IMG/VR virus record: IMGVR_UViG_3300036759_000028
Span: 1-20,363 of that record
Reading direction: 5' to 3' (one strand)
Source of the DNA: a virus
DNA length: 20,363 nucleotides
Shown: positions 499 to 20,363 of the stretch, piece by piece
Layout of the letters: each line of letters starts with the position of its first letter
Numbering within the stretch: position 1 is the first letter of the stretch
Program-made: the position numbers and the translations under genes
The notes under the pieces: model-generated
Told to the model about the DNA's origin: nothing
What the model saw: only the letters and a program-made list of their open reading frames with translations
The model's database searches: none

Positions 499-3400
499 CT
501 ACAGTCCGGCGTAGATCAGGTACCGGACCGCGAGGCCGGGCGGCAGCGTGAAGAACGGCGCACTCGTGCCGGGACCGTCGCCGGTGAAGGTGGTGGTGGT
601 CGCGCCCACAGCAGTGTTGTCGCCGTGCGTGGTCCCGGCACCACCCGCGTTCGTCACCAGATTATTCTGCGATCCCGGCCCGGTTTCACGGCTGCTGATC
701 GGGTGGGTGTGCCCCATCGCATGGGTGTGTGTCGGCAGGTTGCCAGCCGTCAGCGCCCGCTGGTCCGCCCCGACCGTCTGCCCTGCTGCGAACGCGCCAG
801 CGTTGGGGAACGTGCCCGCCCCGAACGGGAACCTGGCCCGCAGGTCCGGCAGCGTCCCGGGCGTCGACCCGTAGGTGGTGCCGAGCAGCGCGATCAGCGC
901 GGTGTACTGGGGCGGGCAGACCGAGCCGTCACAGGTGAGCCATCCGGCCGGGGTACCGGTCGCTGGGGCGTAGGCGATGATCGTGCCGACCGGGGTGAGC
1001 GCCAGCGCCACCGCCGCCGCAAGATCGGTGACAGCCACCGTGCCGTCGGCGATCTTGACAGACGTGACCGCACCGTCCGCCAACTCTGCGGTACCGATGC
1101 TGCCGTCGGTGACCTGGCTCGCTCCGACACTGTTCGCCGCCAACGACGGGTCTGGGTAGGTACCGGACAGCGATCCACCAGCAGGCCCGGTCGGTGGCCC
1201 ACCCGTAGCGGGGTGAGTGTGATTTCCGGCTGCCGCCTGCTGTGCCCCGGTGCCAAGGGTCCGCATCGAAGGTGTGGCAGCGGCTCCGTCTTTGTTCGCC
1301 GCCGCCACATCAGTGTCCACGATGGTCGCGTCCAGAATCTTCGCCGACGTGACCGCGTTGTTGCCGAGTTTGACCGCCGTCACAGCCCCGGTCGCCAACT
1401 CGTTTGAACCGACGACGCCGACGCCGAGGGTCGGGTTCGGGTAGGTGCCGGTCAGCGACCCCCCGGCAGGACCCGACGGCGGCAGGCTGGTCGGAACCGT
1501 GGGGATCACCCCGGCAGCGATGTCGCCAGCCTGGATGGTGCCGTCGGCGATGGCCGTGCTCGTCACCTTCCCGGCCCCGATGGTCGGGTTCGGGTAGGTG
1601 CCTGCCAGGTCGCCGCCTGCAGGACCGGTCGGTGTGCGGGCATCGGTGAACCGGGCGTCGTCACCGGCTGCCGCCTGCTGGGAACCTGTCCCGAGGGTCC
1701 GCATGGATGGAGTGGCGGCAGTCCCGTCCTTGTTTGCCGCCGCCACATCGACGGCCTGGACAGTGCCGTCAAGAATCTTGCTAGACGACACCGCGCCATC
1801 TGCGAGTTTCGCCGTAGTGACAGCCACGTCGGCGATCTGCCCGGTACCGACAGCACCAGTCGCCAGATCACCGCCCTGGATCGTGCCATCCACGATCTGA
1901 AGCGTTGTGACTGCATCGGTGGCGATCTTGCCGAGCGTGACCGCACCGTTGGCGAGTTTGCTGCCGTTGACCGCCCCCGTGGCGATCTCATTGGTGCCGA
2001 CTGCGCCCAGCCCAATCTCCGGGTTCGGATAGGTGCCAGTGAGATCGCCACCTGCCGGACCAGTGGGTGGGCCGCCAGTGGCACCGCCACCAGGGATCGT
2101 TACCGTGACCCCTGCCCCGTCGTCAATACCGGGCGTAGGTGTCACCGTCACGCCATCACCGACGAAGTTCCAGGTGATCTTCGGGTCGACGGCGATATTG
2201 TCGCCTTCGTCCTCGACCTCCTGGTCGGGGCCAGTGACGGTGACGTTGACCTGATCGGCCTGAGTGTCGTCACGGGTGGCGGTCACCCCGTCGCCGATGA
2301 AGTTGAGTGCGAGCACCGGCTCGCTGTTGACCAGGGAGCCTTCGTCCTTCACCGAGCCCAATCCGGACGCATGGCTGTCCACCGTCATCTCACCTGGTGC
2401 CGTCTCCACTGCCGACAGCGGCTCCACGAACACCAACCGAGTCGTCGGAAACACGGTGTAGTCGTAGCCGACCGTCGTCAGCGGTGCCGGGATCACCCCC
2501 GGCGCGATGTCGGCGGCGGTGACCGCGCCGTCTTTGATGCCGGGGTTCGGGTAGGTACCGTCCAGCACCCCGCCAGCCGGACCGGACGGCGGAAGCGTCG
2601 TCGGGATCACGCCGGCTGCCAGGTCAGCGGCGGTGATGCTGCCATCCACGATCATCGACGACCCGATGGCATTCGACTTGATCGTCGGGTTGGGATAGTT
2701 GCCGGTCAGTGAGCCACCAGCAGGGCCAGATGGCGGCAGGCTCGTCGGTGGTGCCGGAATCGTGCCAGGAGCGAGGTCGGCGCTGGTGATGGTGCCGTCC
2801 TTGATCTTCGCCGACGTGACAGCATCATCGGCTAGCGACGTGGTGAGTACCTTCCCAGGCCCAATGGTCGGATTCGGGTACGTCCCGGTGAGGTCGCCGC
2901 CCGCCGCACCCGACGGGGGACGCGAATCGGTGAAACGAGGATCGTTTCCGGCGGCTGCCTGCTGCGCCCCCGTACCAAGAGTCCGCAGACTGGGGGTAGC
3001 GGCCGCACCGTCCTTGTTCGCTGGTGCCACATCAGTGTCAGTGATGGCGCCGTCGGCGACCATTGCCGAGGTCACCCCACCTGGGGCGATCGAGAACTGG
3101 CTCCCGGTCAGTTGCAGGCCGGGACCGGCGGTGTAGGAGGCTGCCCCTCCGAACTGCACCCAGGTGACCGGGGTGGTGCCCAACGTGCCACCCTGGTCGG
3201 ACGTGCACACCCAGCCGGTATCGGCGTTGACGGTGCCCTGCTCCACCCACACGTACGCAGACGGCACCTCACCCCAGGTGTTCATGTCTGTGGCTCGGTA
3301 GACCTTAGAGTCGCCAGGGTCGACGTAGTAGATGCCGTTCTCGGCCGGGTTGGCCTGGTTCTTCAACAGCACCCGGTCGCTGTTCGTGACGGTCACTCCG

Positions 3401-4824
3401 TCCAAGGTGGAAAGAGTCTGCGGAGGACTGACGACGATGTTCCCCGTACTGGCAGCCTTCACCGAGGCTTTCGCATCCAGGCCCTGTGCCGCCGCATCCA
3501 CATAGCCCTTGTTCGCCGCGTCGGTCGGATTCGTTGGAGCAGCCAGATCGGTGACCTTCTGGCCGTTGACCGACACTGGGCCGGTGGCTGGATGCTGGCT
3601 GGCAAGTGCGTCCAGAGTGAAAGCAGGGTCGGTATCGGCCACACTCACCGATCCATCAGCGATCTGTGCGGAACCGACTGCACCTGCTGCAATCGTCGGA
3701 TTCGGGTATGTCCCAGTCAGGCTGCCACCGGCTGGGCCAGACGGGGGAAGGCTCGCTGGGATGGTGCCAGGCGCAAGATCGGCGGCGGTGACGCTACCGT
3801 CGGCGATCTTCGCGCTGGTGATCGCGTTGTCGCCGACCTGCGGGTTCGGATAGGTACCGGTCAAATCACCACCGGCTGGACCGGTGGGGGTGGCTGGACC
3901 GCCACCGCCACTGTCGGTGGAGACGGCACCAATCGCCTCGGTGACAACCTCGTCAACAAGCAGCCAGGCCGGTCTGGACGCATCAGCGGAGATGAACGAC
4001 CCACCGTTGTTCGGCACCCCGATCAGGTTGATCCGCTGGTTCGTTGCTCCGGCAGCCTGGTCATAGGTCCACTCCCCAACGGCCGATGCCTGCACGGTTC
4101 GACTGGCGACTCGATGGTCGACGATCTGTTCAGCGACTGAAGAGCCGCTAGTTGACGAGGCGGCCGTGACGCCGACCCGGATCGACAGGTTCGTCCAGAT
4201 ACCGGTCGAGTCCGGCTCAATGTTGCAGAACCCGGTGATGCGGAACCGTTTCCCAACCACACACATCTCTGGTGGCAGCAGGAACGACAAAATCACGTAC
4301 GGACTGGTGCTGTTGTTCGTGCTCGTGGTCCGGGTCGAAACTCCGACATTGCGGAGCACCTGAGTGACCGCGCCACCACCGGATTCGATCTCCCAGTCCG
4401 AGAACACCGACATCCCGGCGTCCTCGTCGAAGTAGAACCGGCGCATGTAAGTGGGCTGCGGCCACTGCATCGGCTCGTCCACCGGGGTGCCGTCAGCCAG
4501 GTCAGGTGGTCGGTACGCGGTCACTCGCTGGATACCGTCGCCGTTCTCATCGACCTCGGTGTGGCCGAGATAGTAGGTGGAGTTCGCCGGATCGGGTGAG
4601 TTGATCGCTCCCGGCTGGGAGAACCAGAATCCGTTCATCTGTGGGGCTGGGTCGTTCCAGTCGTACACCCGCTGTGACCAGGCTCCCAGTCCATCCACGT
4701 AGGTGTGGCCGTCCGGTGGAGCAGGCTTGCGCCGCTCCTCGTGCATGAGCCGCTTCTCCATGTCCATCGACCAGTCGTAGAACGACTGAGCGATACGCCA
4801 GTTGGTTTGCCCAGAAGCACCCAT
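499..4824 (-). CDS. Large tail fibre / minor tail protein with C-terminal collar domain
   Basis: The product is 1441 residues. Residues 1-150 look like the conserved N-terminus of a virion-attached minor tail protein. Residues about 150-297 form a beta-rich segment that could be a carbohydrate-binding jelly roll. From residue 314 to about 1240 there are nine copies of a fibre module built on GPAGG-LTGTYPNP followed by runs of ITSAKIADGSV-type strands, and three copies of a linker with ANKDG and TPSxRTLGTGxQQAAAG. Between copies 2 and 3 lies a longer insert with VTNSDRVLLKNQ and NGIYYVDPGDSKVYRA. The last 169 residues are a phage tail collar domain: PVGTIIAY, GWLTCDGS, YGSTPGTLPDLRARFPFG, then a His cluster at 1366-1374 (HTHAMGHTH), which in collar fibres such as T4 gp12 binds metal. 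It is the likely receptor-binding protein. It starts at ATG 4824, six bases after the preceding stop, with GAGG inside the end of the upstream gene. Confidence 0.9.
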   Translation of the reverse strand: MGASGQTNWRIAQSFYDWSMDMEKRLMHEERRKPAPPDGHTYVDGLGAWSQRVYDWNDPAPQMNGFWFSQPGAINSPDPANSTYYLGHTEVDENGDGIQRVTAYRPPDLADGTPVDEPMQWPQPTYMRRFYFDEDAGMSVFSDWEIESGGGAVTQVLRNVGVSTRTTSTNNSTSPYVILSFLLPPEMCVVGKRFRITGFCNIEPDSTGIWTNLSIRVGVTAASSTSGSSVAEQIVDHRVASRTVQASAVGEWTYDQAAGATNQRINLIGVPNNGGSFISADASRPAWLLVDEVVTEAIGAVSTDSGGGGPATPTGPAGGDLTGTYPNPQVGDNAITSAKIADGSVTAADLAPGTIPASLPPSGPAGGSLTGTYPNPTIAAGAVGSAQIADGSVSVADTDPAFTLDALASQHPATGPVSVNGQKVTDLAAPTNPTDAANKGYVDAAAQGLDAKASVKAASTGNIVVSPPQTLSTLDGVTVTNSDRVLLKNQANPAENGIYYVDPGDSKVYRATDMNTWGEVPSAYVWVEQGTVNADTGWVCTSDQGGTLGTTPVTWVQFGGAASYTAGPGLQLTGSQFSIAPGGVTSAMVADGAITDTDVAPANKDGAAATPSLRTLGTGAQQAAAGNDPRFTDSRPPSGAAGGDLTGTYPNPTIGPGKVLTTSLADDAVTSAKIKDGTITSADLAPGTIPAPPTSLPPSGPAGGSLTGNYPNPTIKSNAIGSSMIVDGSITAADLAAGVIPTTLPPSGPAGGVLDGTYPNPGIKDGAVTAADIAPGVIPAPLTTVGYDYTVFPTTRLVFVEPLSAVETAPGEMTVDSHASGLGSVKDEGSLVNSEPVLALNFIGDGVTATRDDTQADQVNVTVTGPDQEVEDEGDNIAVDPKITWNFVGDGVTVTPTPGIDDGAGVTVTIPGGGATGGPPTGPAGGDLTGTYPNPEIGLGAVGTNEIATGAVNGSKLANGAVTLGKIATDAVTTLQIVDGTIQGGDLATGAVGTGQIADVAVTTAKLADGAVSSSKILDGTVQAVDVAAANKDGTAATPSMRTLGTGSQQAAAGDDARFTDARTPTGPAGGDLAGTYPNPTIGAGKVTSTAIADGTIQAGDIAAGVIPTVPTSLPPSGPAGGSLTGTYPNPTLGVGVVGSNELATGAVTAVKLGNNAVTSAKILDATIVDTDVAAANKDGAAATPSMRTLGTGAQQAAAGNHTHPATGGPPTGPAGGSLSGTYPDPSLAANSVGASQVTDGSIGTAELADGAVTSVKIADGTVAVTDLAAAVALALTPVGTIIAYAPATGTPAGWLTCDGSVCPPQYTALIALLGTTYGSTPGTLPDLRARFPFGAGTFPNAGAFAAGQTVGADQRALTAGNLPTHTHAMGHTHPISSRETGPGSQNNLVTNAGGAGTTHGDNTAVGATTTTFTGDGPGTSAPFFTLPPGLAVRYLIYAGL
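1140..3900 (-). repeat. Nine-copy GPAGG-LTGTYPNP module array within the fibre gene
   Basis: On the plus strand the repeat is visible as nine copies of a GGGTTCGGGTAGGTxCC-like segment, close to positions 1155, 1438, 1590, 2025, 2545, 2692, 2875, 3702 and 3847. Each encodes (T/S)GPAGGxLxGTYPxP. Copies are degenerate (D/S/V before L, one N for T, one D for N), so the array is old rather than freshly amplified. Spacing varies from about 145 to 830 bases because of added strand repeats and the inserted linker domains. Such arrays vary in copy number between related phages by recombination. Confidence 0.85.
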
Positions 4825-16604: not shown

Positions 16605-18230
16605 TCAGGCGCAGGTCAGGTTGGCGGAACCGGTACGCCCGGCGTTGCAGACCGGGATCGTGACCAACTGCGCCTCGTAGCACATCTTCGCTACCAGGAT
16701 GCCCTGTTCGAAGAACAGCGCCGTGTCGAGGTTCTGCACCAGGCTCGCGGCGTCGTAAACGGCGTTGAGGTTGATGACATCGGCGGTGCCCTTGATGAAC
16801 GTTCCTGCCGGGTAGATCAGCGCCTGCACGGTGGCCGGGTAGCCGATCGCCGGGGCAGTCCCGGCCGGGAACGGGGTGTCCTGCCAGTCGTAGACGTACT
16901 GGACGTTGAGGTTGCGGGAGGCAAACAGCGACTCGACGCTCTGACCACCGCAGCCGTTGCGGTTGTCGAGGTCGTTCTGCATCGCACCTTTGACCCACCA
17001 GGGCAGTACGACCTCCATGCTCGCGGTCGGGGACAGCCGGTACTTGGACCTGATGCCGTCGGCGATCAGTGCCAGGCTGTCCACCATGTCGGCGACGGTG
17101 GACCCGTACGCGGTGACCGTCTTCGCGGTACCGGCAGCGGTCGCCATCGCCGCGATCACCTTGGCGTTCATCTTGTGCTGGTGGGCGATCATGCCGCCGG
17201 ACAGGTACCGCTGCACCAGTTCGGGGTAGGCGGCGTTGGTGAGGATCGGTGCCTTGATGCACAGCCCACAGGCGTCGAGCCGGACCTCTGTGAATGCTGG
17301 ACAGGGCACCTCGTAGCACGTCTTGGCGGTCCCTGCGATCGCCTGCGCCTCAGTCTGGCAGAAGCCGACGTTGGAGTAGATGGAGGCGAAGTCGGGGCCG
17401 GAGGTGTACTTGATGCCACCTCGTGCCACGTTGACCTCGGGCACGGACAGGAGGCCCTCGGCAGTTTCACCGGAACATAGGTCGTAGATGGTCTCTGACG
17501 GGGCACACCAGCCACCGGAGGCAACCAGCGACCCGCCAGGAAGCCGAGCCTCATCCATCGCGTGGTACAGCACCTCCATGTCGTCGGAGTGCCGGTCGAT
17601 GGTGAGTTCGTTGGGGAAGTCCAACTTGAACATCGCCACGCCGTAGTGCTGCAAGTTCTCGATGCTGCCGTCACCGGTCGGGGTGCCGAACCCCTTCATC
17701 CTGTTCACCAGCGCCTGGCCGACCTTCTCGAAGTCGTTACCCAGGTCGGAGCCGGTGGAGAACTGTGGCACGTCGGCAGCAGCGGTGATGGTGATCGGGG
17801 CACGGGAGGCGGCGGGTTTGGTGGGACGGGAAGTCCGCTTCGCCAGCACAGCCACCGTCGACCGGGCTGCGATCGGCGGCTCGTCCACGACCTCTGCTTC
17901 CACTACTTCGGCATCGAGATCGTCGCCGTTGTCGTCGCCGTTGTCGTCGGTGGCCTCCACCTCGTCCGGCTCGGCATCTTCGCGCTGAAACCGGGTCTGT
18001 AGCGCGGCATGACGAGCAGTCAGTTCCGCGACGGCCTGGGCACGGGCTGCTTCTTCGCCCTGTGCTGCCTCGATGGCTGCTGCGTACGCTTCCGCCCGGT
18101 CGAGTTCGTCAGCAGTGATCGTGTCCGCGTCACGGAGTTCGCCGAAGGCGGCGAACAGTGAGGCCACGTATTCCGACAACTGGTCATCGGAGAGTTCGGT
18201 GAAGTCAGTCAGGATTTCGAGGGGGTCCAC
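16605..18230 (-). CDS. Major capsid protein (HK97-like) with N-terminal scaffold-like region
   Basis: The product is 541 residues from GTG 18230, preceded by GGAG at a six-base distance. Residues 12-84 are strongly helical and Ala/Glu-rich, 84-118 are acidic (DDNGDDNGDDLDAEVV), 123-145 are basic, and the shell domain begins near 155. This is the layout of an HK97-type capsid protein with a delta or scaffold domain, which a protease would remove; no protease is in the window. The shell part contains SMEVVLPWWVKGAM and, near the end, IYPAGTFIKGTADVINLNAV and TALFFEQGILVAKMCYEA, typical of this fold. It has 11 Cys, five of them in 291-324 (C291, C305, C310, C321, C324), unusual for a capsid protein and a possible source of disulfide links between subunits. 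Confidence 0.85.
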   Translation of the reverse strand: MDPLEILTDFTELSDDQLSEYVASLFAAFGELRDADTITADELDRAEAYAAAIEAAQGEEAARAQAVAELTARHAALQTRFQREDAEPDEVEATDDNGDDNGDDLDAEVVEAEVVDEPPIAARSTVAVLAKRTSRPTKPAASRAPITITAAADVPQFSTGSDLGNDFEKVGQALVNRMKGFGTPTGDGSIENLQHYGVAMFKLDFPNELTIDRHSDDMEVLYHAMDEARLPGGSLVASGGWCAPSETIYDLCSGETAEGLLSVPEVNVARGGIKYTSGPDFASIYSNVGFCQTEAQAIAGTAKTCYEVPCPAFTEVRLDACGLCIKAPILTNAAYPELVQRYLSGGMIAHQHKMNAKVIAAMATAAGTAKTVTAYGSTVADMVDSLALIADGIRSKYRLSPTASMEVVLPWWVKGAMQNDLDNRNGCGGQSVESLFASRNLNVQYVYDWQDTPFPAGTAPAIGYPATVQALIYPAGTFIKGTADVINLNAVYDAASLVQNLDTALFFEQGILVAKMCYEAQLVTIPVCNAGRTGSANLTCA

Positions 18231-18378: not shown

Positions 18379-18993
18379 TCATGGAGTGTCTTGGAGACAC
18401 ACTTCGATGATTGCGGTGGCTTCCGGGTCACGTTGGTGGACACTGATGACAGTGGCGGTGAACCCCACCGGACAGGCTGGACCAGGTGGGCCTGCTGGCC
18501 CAGGTTCACCCTGAGCGCCCGTCTGGCCCTGCCGCCCTGGTGGCCCTTGTGGACCCATTTCCCCTTCGGGTCCACGGGGGCCACGCCTGCCGGGTATGCC
18601 CTGCTCGCCCTTACCAGGTGGGCCTGGCTCGCCTCGTGGACCGGGGACACCTGGCTGACCGGCTGGACCGGCAGGTCCCTGCTGGCCTATGCCCGGTGCC
18701 CCTGGTGCTCCGTCATTACCCGATTCTCCTGCCGGTCCACGCGGACCTGGCTTCCCTGTCTGCCCGCGTGGACCGGGTTTTCCCTCTCCACCTGTCGGTC
18801 CACGTGCACCGGGTGGGCCTGCCTGGCCTTGGGGACCTGGCGGACCGGTGACGGTGACGGCGGTGGGGACGGAAGCGTCGGCGCTGCTGGGGTTGTCGAG
18901 GATGAGCCCTGCTGCGATGGTGCCTCCGAACGCGACCACCATCAGGATGCCTGCGGCGAGGTAGCCGACGGGGGGCTGGGTGAGCCTGCTCAT
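18379..18993 (-). CDS. Membrane-anchored collagen-like protein
   Basis: The product is 204 residues. Residues about 10-32 form one hydrophobic segment ([20 protein letters not shown]) after a short N-terminus with one Arg, so it could be a membrane anchor or an uncleaved signal; no lipobox Cys is present. Residues 50-173 are Gly-X-Y repeats: 17 triplets, an interruption GIGQQ (101-105), 7 triplets, an interruption GKGEQ (127-131) and 14 triplets. The repeats are Pro-rich, often with GPP, GPR and GKP, as in phage and bacterial collagen-like proteins. Residues 174-204 form a short end with C174 and C199 ([28 protein letters not shown]), perhaps a trimerisation or disulfide-bonded tip. The function is unknown: it may be a virion surface fibre or a host-surface protein. 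ATG 18993 lies seven bases after a strong hairpin. Confidence 0.75.
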
Positions 18994-19000
18994 GAGACGA

Positions 19001-19039
19001 CTACGCCCCCTCTAGACCGGATGCCGGTGGGGGGCGTAG
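19001..19039 (-). promoter_or_regulatory. Strong hairpin just upstream of the collagen-like gene
   Basis: CTACGCCCCC (19001-19010) pairs perfectly with GGGGGCGTAG (19030-19039). Inside, ACCGG (19016-19020) pairs with CCGGT (19024-19028) around a three-base loop. The base of the stem is seven bases from the start codon of the collagen-like gene, and the only purine-rich stretch that could be its ribosome site (AGGGGG on the coding strand) is part of the stem. Initiation may therefore depend on opening the stem. There is no U-run after it, so termination by the intrinsic route is unlikely. Confidence 0.55.
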
Positions 19040-19146
19040 CGTGCGATTTGACGTCAGCAATCCCGACTGTACAGCCACTGGGCTTACGGGGTCCAGCGGG
19101 GTACAGCCATGCACAGAGCGGCGTACGCTCGGGTCCACTTGGGCGG

Positions 19147-19163
19147 GAGGGGAAGCACCCCTC
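19147..19163. terminator. Terminator-like stem-loop after the zinc-ribbon gene cluster
   Basis: GAGGGG-AAGCA-CCCCTC, a perfect 6-bp stem and five-base loop, seven bases beyond the stop of the last zinc-ribbon gene (19171). No U-run follows, but terminators without one are common in actinobacteria. Together with the hairpin at 19001-19039 it marks a probable boundary between the small gene cluster and the structural operon. Confidence 0.4.
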
Positions 19164-19170
19164 TGTCCAC

Positions 19171-19392
19171 TCACGGTTCCCCGTCGCGTCCGTAATCCCA
19201 ACCGCAGCGTTCACACACCAGGCCCTTCGTCTCCCGCTGCCGCACCCACCTGCCCATCAGCGAGTGCCAGGTCCGGCCGTTGCAGGTCGGGCAGCGGCGG
19301 GTTTGTCTCCGAGCCAGGGCCGTGTGTTCCGGGCTGTTCGGGCACGAGTCCGGACAAGGGGCAGGCCGATGGAGCGGGCATGGTTCACGCAT
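19171..19392 (-). CDS. Small zinc-ribbon protein
   Basis: The product is 73 residues from ATG 19392, which overlaps the upstream stop as TGATG. C34-P-T-C37 and C60-E-R-C63 form a plausible zinc ribbon, with aromatic and basic residues between (RTWHSLMGRWVRQRE), and a second N-terminal set C5, C13, C17. An in-frame ATG at 19422 (83 aa) is an alternative start. Small zinc-ribbon proteins of unknown role are common in actinobacterial phages; nucleic acid binding is likely but not shown. Confidence 0.65.
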   Translation of the reverse strand: MREPCPLHRPAPCPDSCPNSPEHTALARRQTRRCPTCNGRTWHSLMGRWVRQRETKGLVCERCGWDYGRDGEP

Positions 19393-19595
19393 CACGACGG
19401 TATCGTCCCGCAAATCTGGCATGGCCTCTCTGTCGACACCCAACAGGTCAGTGTGAGGCCCGCACCCAACGAGCAGACATGCCAGATCATCGGCGGGATG
19501 TCGGCAGCCAGCGCATCCCGTTCCTGACACTGTGCACACGCGGCGATGCCGCCGCAGGTGCAGCCCGGCTCGACAGAGGTCACAGGCTCAGCCAT
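19392..19595 (-). CDS. Small Cys-rich protein, zinc-binding candidate
   Basis: The product is 67 residues from ATG 19595, four bases after the upstream stop. Eight Cys are arranged as C12-x-C14, C20-x2-C23, C41, C51 and C59-x2-C62, enough for two metal sites. I do not recognise the family. The stop overlaps the next start (TGATG), suggesting coupled translation. Confidence 0.55.
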   Translation of the reverse strand: MAEPVTSVEPGCTCGGIAACAQCQERDALAADIPPMIWHVCSLGAGLTLTCWVSTERPCQICGTIPS

Positions 19596-19842: not shown

Positions 19843-20052
19843 TCACAGAAGCGGTGGAGAGGTAGACGTGTCGGGGTCCGTCCACGTCCGCTGCTCAGCC
19901 ATCGGTTCGGCGGTGACGACGCCTGCTCGGAGGATCGTGTGCGTGGTGCGAACCCAGCCGTACCCATGCGGTTCTCCGGCGACATGAACCTCGCGGGTGA
20001 TGGGCCAGTCGACCGCACCATCGTCGGTGGTAGCGGTCGGTTCAGTCGTCAC
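19843..20052 (-). CDS. Small hypothetical protein
   Basis: The product is 69 residues from GTG 20052. GGAGG lies six bases upstream, a strong ribosome site, and the start overlaps the upstream stop by 11 bases (GTGACGACTGA). The frame is open further upstream but inside the previous gene. It is polar with Thr-rich ends and the segment PITREVHVAGEPHGYGWVRT; no domain is recognised. Confidence 0.55.
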   Translation of the reverse strand: MTTEPTATTDDGAVDWPITREVHVAGEPHGYGWVRTTHTILRAGVVTAEPMAEQRTWTDPDTSTSPPLL

Positions 20053-20227
20053 AGTGGGCCTCCACGATGTTCCAGACCGTTCCGCACCGCTCGCACCAGA
20101 CCTGCGGAACATCGGTCCCTGCCAGCGTCCGGCGGCTTTCGACGGAGTAGTCGTGGCCGTGGGTGAGGCATTCTCGGCGGGCGAGTTCGGCACGGGCGGC
20201 GTCGAGGGTGTAGGTCTGCTCAGTCAT
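20042..20227 (-). CDS. Small zinc-ribbon protein
   Basis: The product is 61 residues from ATG 20227, overlapping the upstream stop as ATGACTGA. A C-x2-H motif (C20, H23, also H25) and C45-E-R-C48 are 21 residues apart and make a plausible zinc site. Sequence C-L-T-H-G-H-D-Y followed later by WCERCGTVW is typical of small zinc-ribbon proteins of actinobacterial phages. A longer frame reaches upstream but overlaps the previous gene heavily. Confidence 0.65.
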   Translation of the reverse strand: MTEQTYTLDAARAELARRECLTHGHDYSVESRRTLAGTDVPQVWCERCGTVWNIVEAHCDD

Positions 20228-20363
20228 CGACAGCCACCGCCAGCCTGTCCGCGTTCCCGGACCAGACCGCCCCGGCGTCGGTGTTGGTGTGTGCCCAGCC
20301 GTCATGGCGACCGTTCTCGTCGGTGGGTCGGTCGCAGGCGAAGTGCTTGCCCTCGATGGTCAA
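20220..20363 (-). CDS. Hypothetical protein, 3' end only
   Basis: An open frame enters from the right edge and ends at TGA 20222-20220 with 47 codons visible (ending NADRLAVAVDD). The first visible codon is TTG, so it could be the true start, but the gene may extend outside the window. It overlaps the next gene by eight bases, consistent with the coupled layout of this cluster. No motif is recognised. Confidence 0.5.
   Translation of the reverse strand: MTIEGKHFACDRPTDENGRHDGWAHTNTDAGAVWSGNADRLAVAVDD

Follow-up and report, generated by a model that had tools for sequence, protein, structure and literature searches.

A membrane-anchored, collagen-stalked protein encoded after a holin-like gene in uncultured phages: a likely member of the lysis module

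The collagen-like gene and its surroundings

The window analyzed here, meaning the whole stretch of 20,363 bases (GC 64%), belongs to an uncultured virus record and encodes on its minus strand a collagen-like protein (Table 1). This ORF matches the Pfam Collagen model (PF01391) with an E-value of 4.9e-19 and 68.3 bits (cut-off 27.2). Hydropathy analysis showed one hydrophobic segment, which is N-terminal, the best 19-residue stretch starting from about aa 14 with a mean Kyte-Doolittle value of 2.26, and an AxA-type motif noticed by eye at aa 38-40 would also suit a signal peptide that is cleaved, in place of a lasting membrane anchor. A Gly-X-Y run follows from aa 50. The first-pass annotation had already recognized a Gly-X-Y protein and the two interruptions GIGQQ and GKGEQ, and both observations hold, although parsing of the repeat gives 40 triplets instead of the 38 that it counted. 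The interruptions are exactly two and each is one residue short (Gly-Ile at 101 and Gly-Lys at 127). The collagen triple helix rises 0.86 nm per triplet, and the stalk would be ~34 nm long provided that the triple helix forms. Additionally, two cysteines are located within the 32-residue C-terminal end. Collagen in phages is usually encountered, and annotated, as tail fibre. PHROG matches of the protein fall in tail (fibres), head or unknown families with collagen-like stretches, and these matches reflect the collagen repeat only.

Table 1. Positions of the features of the collagen-like gene and its neighbors in the window and in contig L002.
Feature	Sequence	Position	Strand	Basis or remark
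Membrane-anchored collagen-like gene	window	18379..18993	minus	204 aa, ATG start; Pfam Collagen; homologous family
N-terminal membrane segment, about aa 10-32	window	18898..18966	minus	Contains the conserved P-x-x-G-Y/F-x-x-A; ends estimated; hydropathy and alignment of 37 relatives
Collagen stalk, aa 50-173, 40 Gly-X-Y triplets	window	18475..18846	minus	Repeat parsing
C-terminal cap, aa 173-204, CPxGF...VHQRxP...VC	window	18382..18477	minus	Alignment and AlphaFold2
74-aa ORF	window	18990..19214	minus	Its TGA shares ATGA with the collagen start; may serve for coupling, doubtful whether coding
122-aa zinc-ribbon-like ORF	window	19171..19539	minus	Between the holin-like and collagen genes
87-aa zinc-ribbon-like ORF	window	20042..20305	minus	Same intervening stretch
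Major capsid protein gene	window	16605..18230	minus	phrog_777, E-value = 4.4e-143; neighbor only, outside the module
Holin-like gene	L002	2533-2817		Beyond the window's end; two-helix, holin-like profile
HNH endonuclease gene	L002	2890-3453		Beyond the window's end; HNH_3, E-value = 3.5e-17
Collagen gene	L002	5238-5852

Contig L002 represents the same phage as the window (9,163 bases at 99.98% identity) and reaches 3.9 kb beyond the window's end, where a holin-like gene is located. In this phage the holin-like and the collagen gene are separated by an HNH gene and small ORFs, two of which appear zinc-ribbon-like by eye. The zinc-ribbon cluster of the first-pass annotation is plausible in view of its C-x2-C pairs, but the one ORF that was compared with Pfam and PHROG models (19171-19539) gave no match. 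A GTGA overlap persists at the stop of the holin-like gene (L002:2814-2817) and opens an 82-aa ORF without evident meaning. This is the arrangement where many relatives begin their collagen gene, as if the site were a former collagen start, and the zinc-ribbon cluster is best regarded as DNA that came to separate the two partner genes. A second, related HNH gene lies in the same phage within the tail gene region and on the other strand (window:11501-12043); both contain HNH_3 and share 39% identity over 151 aligned positions. Elsewhere in the window, at 499-4824, a 1,441-aa tail-fibre-like protein is encoded, with many SGPAGGxLTGTYPNPTI-type repeats and a Collar domain (E-value = 1.7e-13).

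A family of collagen-stalked phage proteins

The gene is a member of a widespread, apparently undescribed family of membrane-anchored, collagen-stalked phage proteins, all members of which lie on uncultured viral contigs. An N-terminal motif, P-x-x-G-Y/F-x-x-A-x-x-L with variation, is common to 37 aligned relatives and therefore a later start codon that would remove the hydrophobic segment, the refuting condition named in the first-pass annotation, is very unlikely. Across these 37 representatives the stalk ranges from 23 to 49 Gly-X-Y triplets, which would correspond to about 20-42 nm if triple-helical. Interruptions of varied form occur at least once in 22 of them and are absent in the other 15, so the family lends no support to the flexible or kinked sites that had been suggested for the two interruptions of the window's protein. 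Exactly two cysteines are present in 34/37 proteins, and both C-terminal cysteines are invariant in an alignment of 36 C-terminal ends. Between them, 29/37 proteins bear an H-Q-R-like motif, while an alternative form carries L-N-A-P-G-G-Q in its place. AlphaFold2 predicted the C-terminal end as a beta-hairpin (pLDDT 94.5) with strands at 6-16 and 19-29 and H-Q-R near the tip. Comparison of this hairpin with the PDB led to no relative, either by sequence profile (best E-value = 0.22) or by Foldseek (best E-value = 2.1). Concerning selection, whole-gene dN/dS was 0.26-0.37 in six of seven pairs, dS being saturated in the seventh, and the C-terminal end showed strong constraint in some pairs (0.05, 0.08) and none in another (0.64). 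Purifying selection (dN/dS about 0.3) together with the conserved end indicates a functional family.

Among 50,697 records of isolated phages, tblastn with eight protein queries (five collagen proteins or their ends, and three holin-like proteins) gave no homologue; the collagen queries depend on the protein ends, because BLAST masks the collagen repeat. One of them matched 12 records, all with an E-value >=1, which were taken as chance. Megablast with 8.4 kb of the window gave no match, and the sole locus of one scan of host genomes (L089) proved to be an ABC-transporter permease and a chance match. In a limited open-access literature search, the titles and abstract beginnings among the matches listed described no membrane-anchored collagen lysis protein.

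Genomic linkage to a holin-like gene

Gene maps of the relatives showed that the collagen gene is established 3' of a small membrane ORF with two segments, often overlapping its stop. A profile built from nine of these holin-like ORFs was searched against viral contigs and retrieved 66 loci, which formed 51 clusters at 90% identity; L055, whose contig ends 13 bases past the holin-like ORF, was taken out of the denominator, giving 50 assessable lineages. An ORF with a membrane segment and collagen repeats was found downstream of the holin-like gene in 42/50 lineages, 37 of them by script and five as clusters checked singly (L030, L049/L050, L057, L061, L070). In 41 of these 42 it directly adjoins the holin-like stop or overlaps it, the exception being the window's phage with a gap of 2,421 bases; the exact overlap (4 bases in 22/42) is biased, since start codons were taken nearest to the holin-like stop. 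Reading of the downstream ORFs showed the holin-like gene without a collagen gene in the remaining 8/50 (L031, L039, L062/L064, L063, L065, L080, L085, L086). For the reverse test, the C-terminal motif was used as a DNA pattern and detected 14 contigs, two of them new (L090, L103). Eleven encode an ORF with a membrane segment and collagen repeats, and the holin-like gene is immediately upstream in all 11, while the other three share one common kind of unrelated ORF.

The holin-like proteins are 74-119 aa long and combine two hydrophobic segments with a charged tail; the predicted fold is a helical hairpin (mean pLDDT 83.5) formed by residues 9-38 and 45-84. None of the 51 members matched a Pfam or PHROG holin family above the cut-off and matches were scattered and weak, the best being Phage_holin_3_6 in one member (E-value = 0.0054, below cut-off), so the designation holin-like is drawn from anatomy and neighbors. 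Foldseek comparison of the hairpin with viral models gave nothing with an E-value <=0.001. The annotated holin of Pam4, which occupies the same genome slot, was considered and is not a relative.

As for the surrounding genes, Pfam comparison of 58 hand-picked upstream ORFs, where one ORF may match several domains, gave M23 in six, Amidase_2 in four, GH25 in three and M15_3, M15_4 and CHAP in one each; examples are M23 in L005, Amidase_2 in L028 and M15 in L038. Peptidoglycan hydrolase domains are thus a minority, and many members have no recognizable endolysin directly upstream. For the candidate endolysin of the window's phage (L002 1293-2291), no Pfam match exceeded the cut-off and the PHROG match is to a 'membrane associated protein'. 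Some members sit after tail genes, with Collar in 5/58 upstream ORFs. Among 40 hand-picked other neighbor ORFs the commonest PHROG families were replicative helicase/primase and terminase. An ORF resembling the endonuclease/exonuclease/phosphatase fold was also seen inside the cassette beside the holin-like gene of L005 (4309-4989, Pfam E-value = 2.6e-7), and similar ORFs are present in L037, L048 and L087; Pfam detected this fold in 2/58 upstream ORFs and the rest were noticed by eye. Finally, no tyrosine integrase was found in 18 contigs of 49-81 kb, which may be fragments and were searched for the tyrosine type only; this suggests that the member phages are virulent.

A total of 848 phage records, mostly from phages of Mycobacterium, Gordonia and Microbacterium, contain relatives at <60% identity of the capsid protein encoded beside the collagen gene in the window, and for this reason the host is probably actinobacterial. 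Searching viral contigs with the capsid protein retrieved 18 loci, and a collagen homologue is encoded upstream of the capsid gene in 10 of them (L002, L003, L005, L006, L007, L009, L010, L011, L016, L019), in a shorter C-terminal form in L005. Five loci with the same capsid lack the collagen gene within the 6 kb searched upstream (L004, L012 and the near-copies L013-L015), and so do L008, L017 and L018, for which 3.5 kb or less was searched. L003, L005, L006 and L007 carry the collagen gene in the orientation opposite to that of the capsid gene, and the holin-like gene shares this inversion in L003 and L005, the two loci in which both ORFs were called. Seen from the holin-like side (L027, L037, L050, L069), the same contigs present the holin-like/collagen pair intact. 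The inverted cassette is flanked on its other side by a conserved ORF with a QVRRGTAAQW-type start that resembles by eye a fibre N-terminus (L003:1264-2424, L005:2469-3629, L006:1856-3019, L007:1789-2943). Regarding the 51 holin-like clusters, the window's capsid type was found near only 12, within fetched flanks of 4 kb or less.

A proposed role in lysis and comparison with known systems

The collagen-stalked protein likely belongs to the lysis module. Its gene comes directly behind that of a holin-like pore protein, and the role of the protein is therefore probably in the bursting of the host cell and not in the building of the particle, its precise act presumably being disruption of the envelope or the timing of lysis. 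Our best reading, to which we assign a probability of roughly 0.6, is that the gene is the last of a lysis cassette and encodes a third lysis factor, similar to LysZ or a spanin, with a collagen stalk. The cassette would run from a peptidoglycan hydrolase through the two-helix holin-like protein to the single-helix collagen-stalked protein. The N-terminus of the latter would remain cytoplasmic with the membrane helix as anchor, while three copies would assemble into a collagen rod, roughly 20-40 nm long, that crosses the cell wall and is tipped by a trimer of disulphide-closed beta-hairpins. Made alongside the holin, the protein may remain inactive up to the firing of the holin and the cleavage of the wall by the endolysin, and may then grip or displace the envelope layer beyond the peptidoglycan, letting the progeny exit. 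More tentatively, and with somewhat less than even odds, these proteins could constitute a new lysis class, a 'collagen spanin', whose anchored trimers would bind and tear an outer envelope layer with their hairpin tip after endolysin action in a large group of uncultured, probably actinobacterial phages.

The other readings have to account for the same linkage. The collagen gene adjoins the capsid gene in the window, a site to which the first-pass annotation had attached significance, and the protein might be a virion part, that is, a head fibre or decoration with a processed N-terminus; the PHROG tail-fibre matches would agree, though they derive from the collagen repeat. This is the least probable of the explanations considered. 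The position before the capsid gene seems incidental given the capsid counts above, and the holin-like linkage, the same-capsid phages without the gene and the membrane segment conserved in the family all argue against a head fibre, as do separate collagen-containing fibre-like ORFs, with a weak or no N-terminal hydrophobic segment, on some of the same contigs (L042, L051, L083). A capsid-linked head fibre was set aside as the main reading on the linkage counts. With a membrane segment for an N-terminus and a holin-like gene for a partner in place of the capsid gene, the protein bears out the original description of a membrane-anchored, collagen-like product that is not an ordinary tail fibre. 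Display outside the cell late in infection, where the protein would block adsorption of further phages to the cell or its debris, is very unlikely too. A predicted extracellular rod, tipped by a conserved knob of small size, would suit such a shield, and collagen-like rods serve at surfaces elsewhere, but superinfection exclusion gives no reason for so constant a holin-like linkage and a site abutting that gene would be an unusual place for it. Expression from a lysogen is unlikely, and the earlier suggestion of a changed host surface is weakened in its lysogenic form, since no tyrosine integrase was detected in the 18 contigs.

A regulator of lysis timing deserves more weight, while still being unlikely. 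In this case the protein would act much as an antiholin does, pairing with its holin-like partner within the membrane, and its outer knob would sense the wall or a superinfecting phage, for which RI of T4 offers an analogy. The abutting or overlapping genes suggest coupled translation at a fixed ratio, the N-terminal helix is conserved and contains small residues, and the conserved H-Q-R at the tip of the predicted hairpin could bind a ligand. However, a stalk of 23-49 triplets exceeds what helix pairing would need, and eight lineages retain the holin-like gene without the collagen gene.

If the reading as a third lysis factor is right, a third lysis component can be named for many uncultured phages and a routine annotation error, the PHROG match to tail fibre, can be corrected. 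It would also supply a testable answer to how phages of bacteria with thick walls or layered envelopes complete lysis after holin and endolysin. Additionally, protein engineering could draw on these natural collagen stalks, which are short and end in a 32-residue capping hairpin.

Spanins of Gram-negative phages comprise Rz/Rz1 and the u-spanins. In the features summarised in PMC13056207 and PMC9671378, they resemble what is proposed for the collagen-stalked protein: an N-terminal anchor, an elongated ectodomain, a gene within the lysis cassette and a third step of lysis. They differ in having a helical ectodomain instead of a collagen rod; moreover, no lipoprotein partner was identified for the collagen protein, whose hosts are probably actinobacterial. 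Closer in arrangement is LysZ of the Corynebacterium glutamicum phages CL31 and Cog (McKitterick, Lyerly, and Bernhardt, 2025, as described in PMC13056207 and PMC13148394). In C. glutamicum phages a two-TMD holin is followed by the single-TMD LysZ, which is essential for proper lysis (PMC13148394). LysZ is described as a 177-aa protein, similar in size to the 204 aa encoded in the window, with a proposed N-in/C-out topology and action on lipoarabinomannan, its deletion leading to small plaques (PMC13056207). Both proteins have a single membrane segment, and the collagen-stalked protein would share with LysZ an outward-facing bulk and a place in a lysis cassette just behind the two-TMD holin; the likeness is drawn from these descriptions of LysZ, which mention no collagen repeat. 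LysZ is backed by genetic evidence, whereas the collagen family is known here from sequences. The LeBron genes gp28 and gp29, likened to the holin/LysZ pair (PMC13148394), also place a two-TMD gene and then a single-TMD gene after lysin genes, as is proposed for the collagen cassette, although gp29 has 139 aa and, unlike the window's protein, no collagen repeats. Comparison of gp29 with the window's protein gave no alignment and gp28 did not match the holin-like profile; LysZ itself being known by description, the collagen protein is accordingly proposed to work like LysZ and is not said to be LysZ. Finally, the EPcl proteins of E. coli O157 prophages join a collagen triple helix to a capping domain at the C-terminus, an architecture that the window's protein would share, and their PfC cap is reported to trimerise (PMC3368898). 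EPcl proteins are parts of tail fibres and start with PfN, the N-terminal domain of phage fibres, whereas the window's protein begins with a membrane helix and is linked to a holin-like gene.
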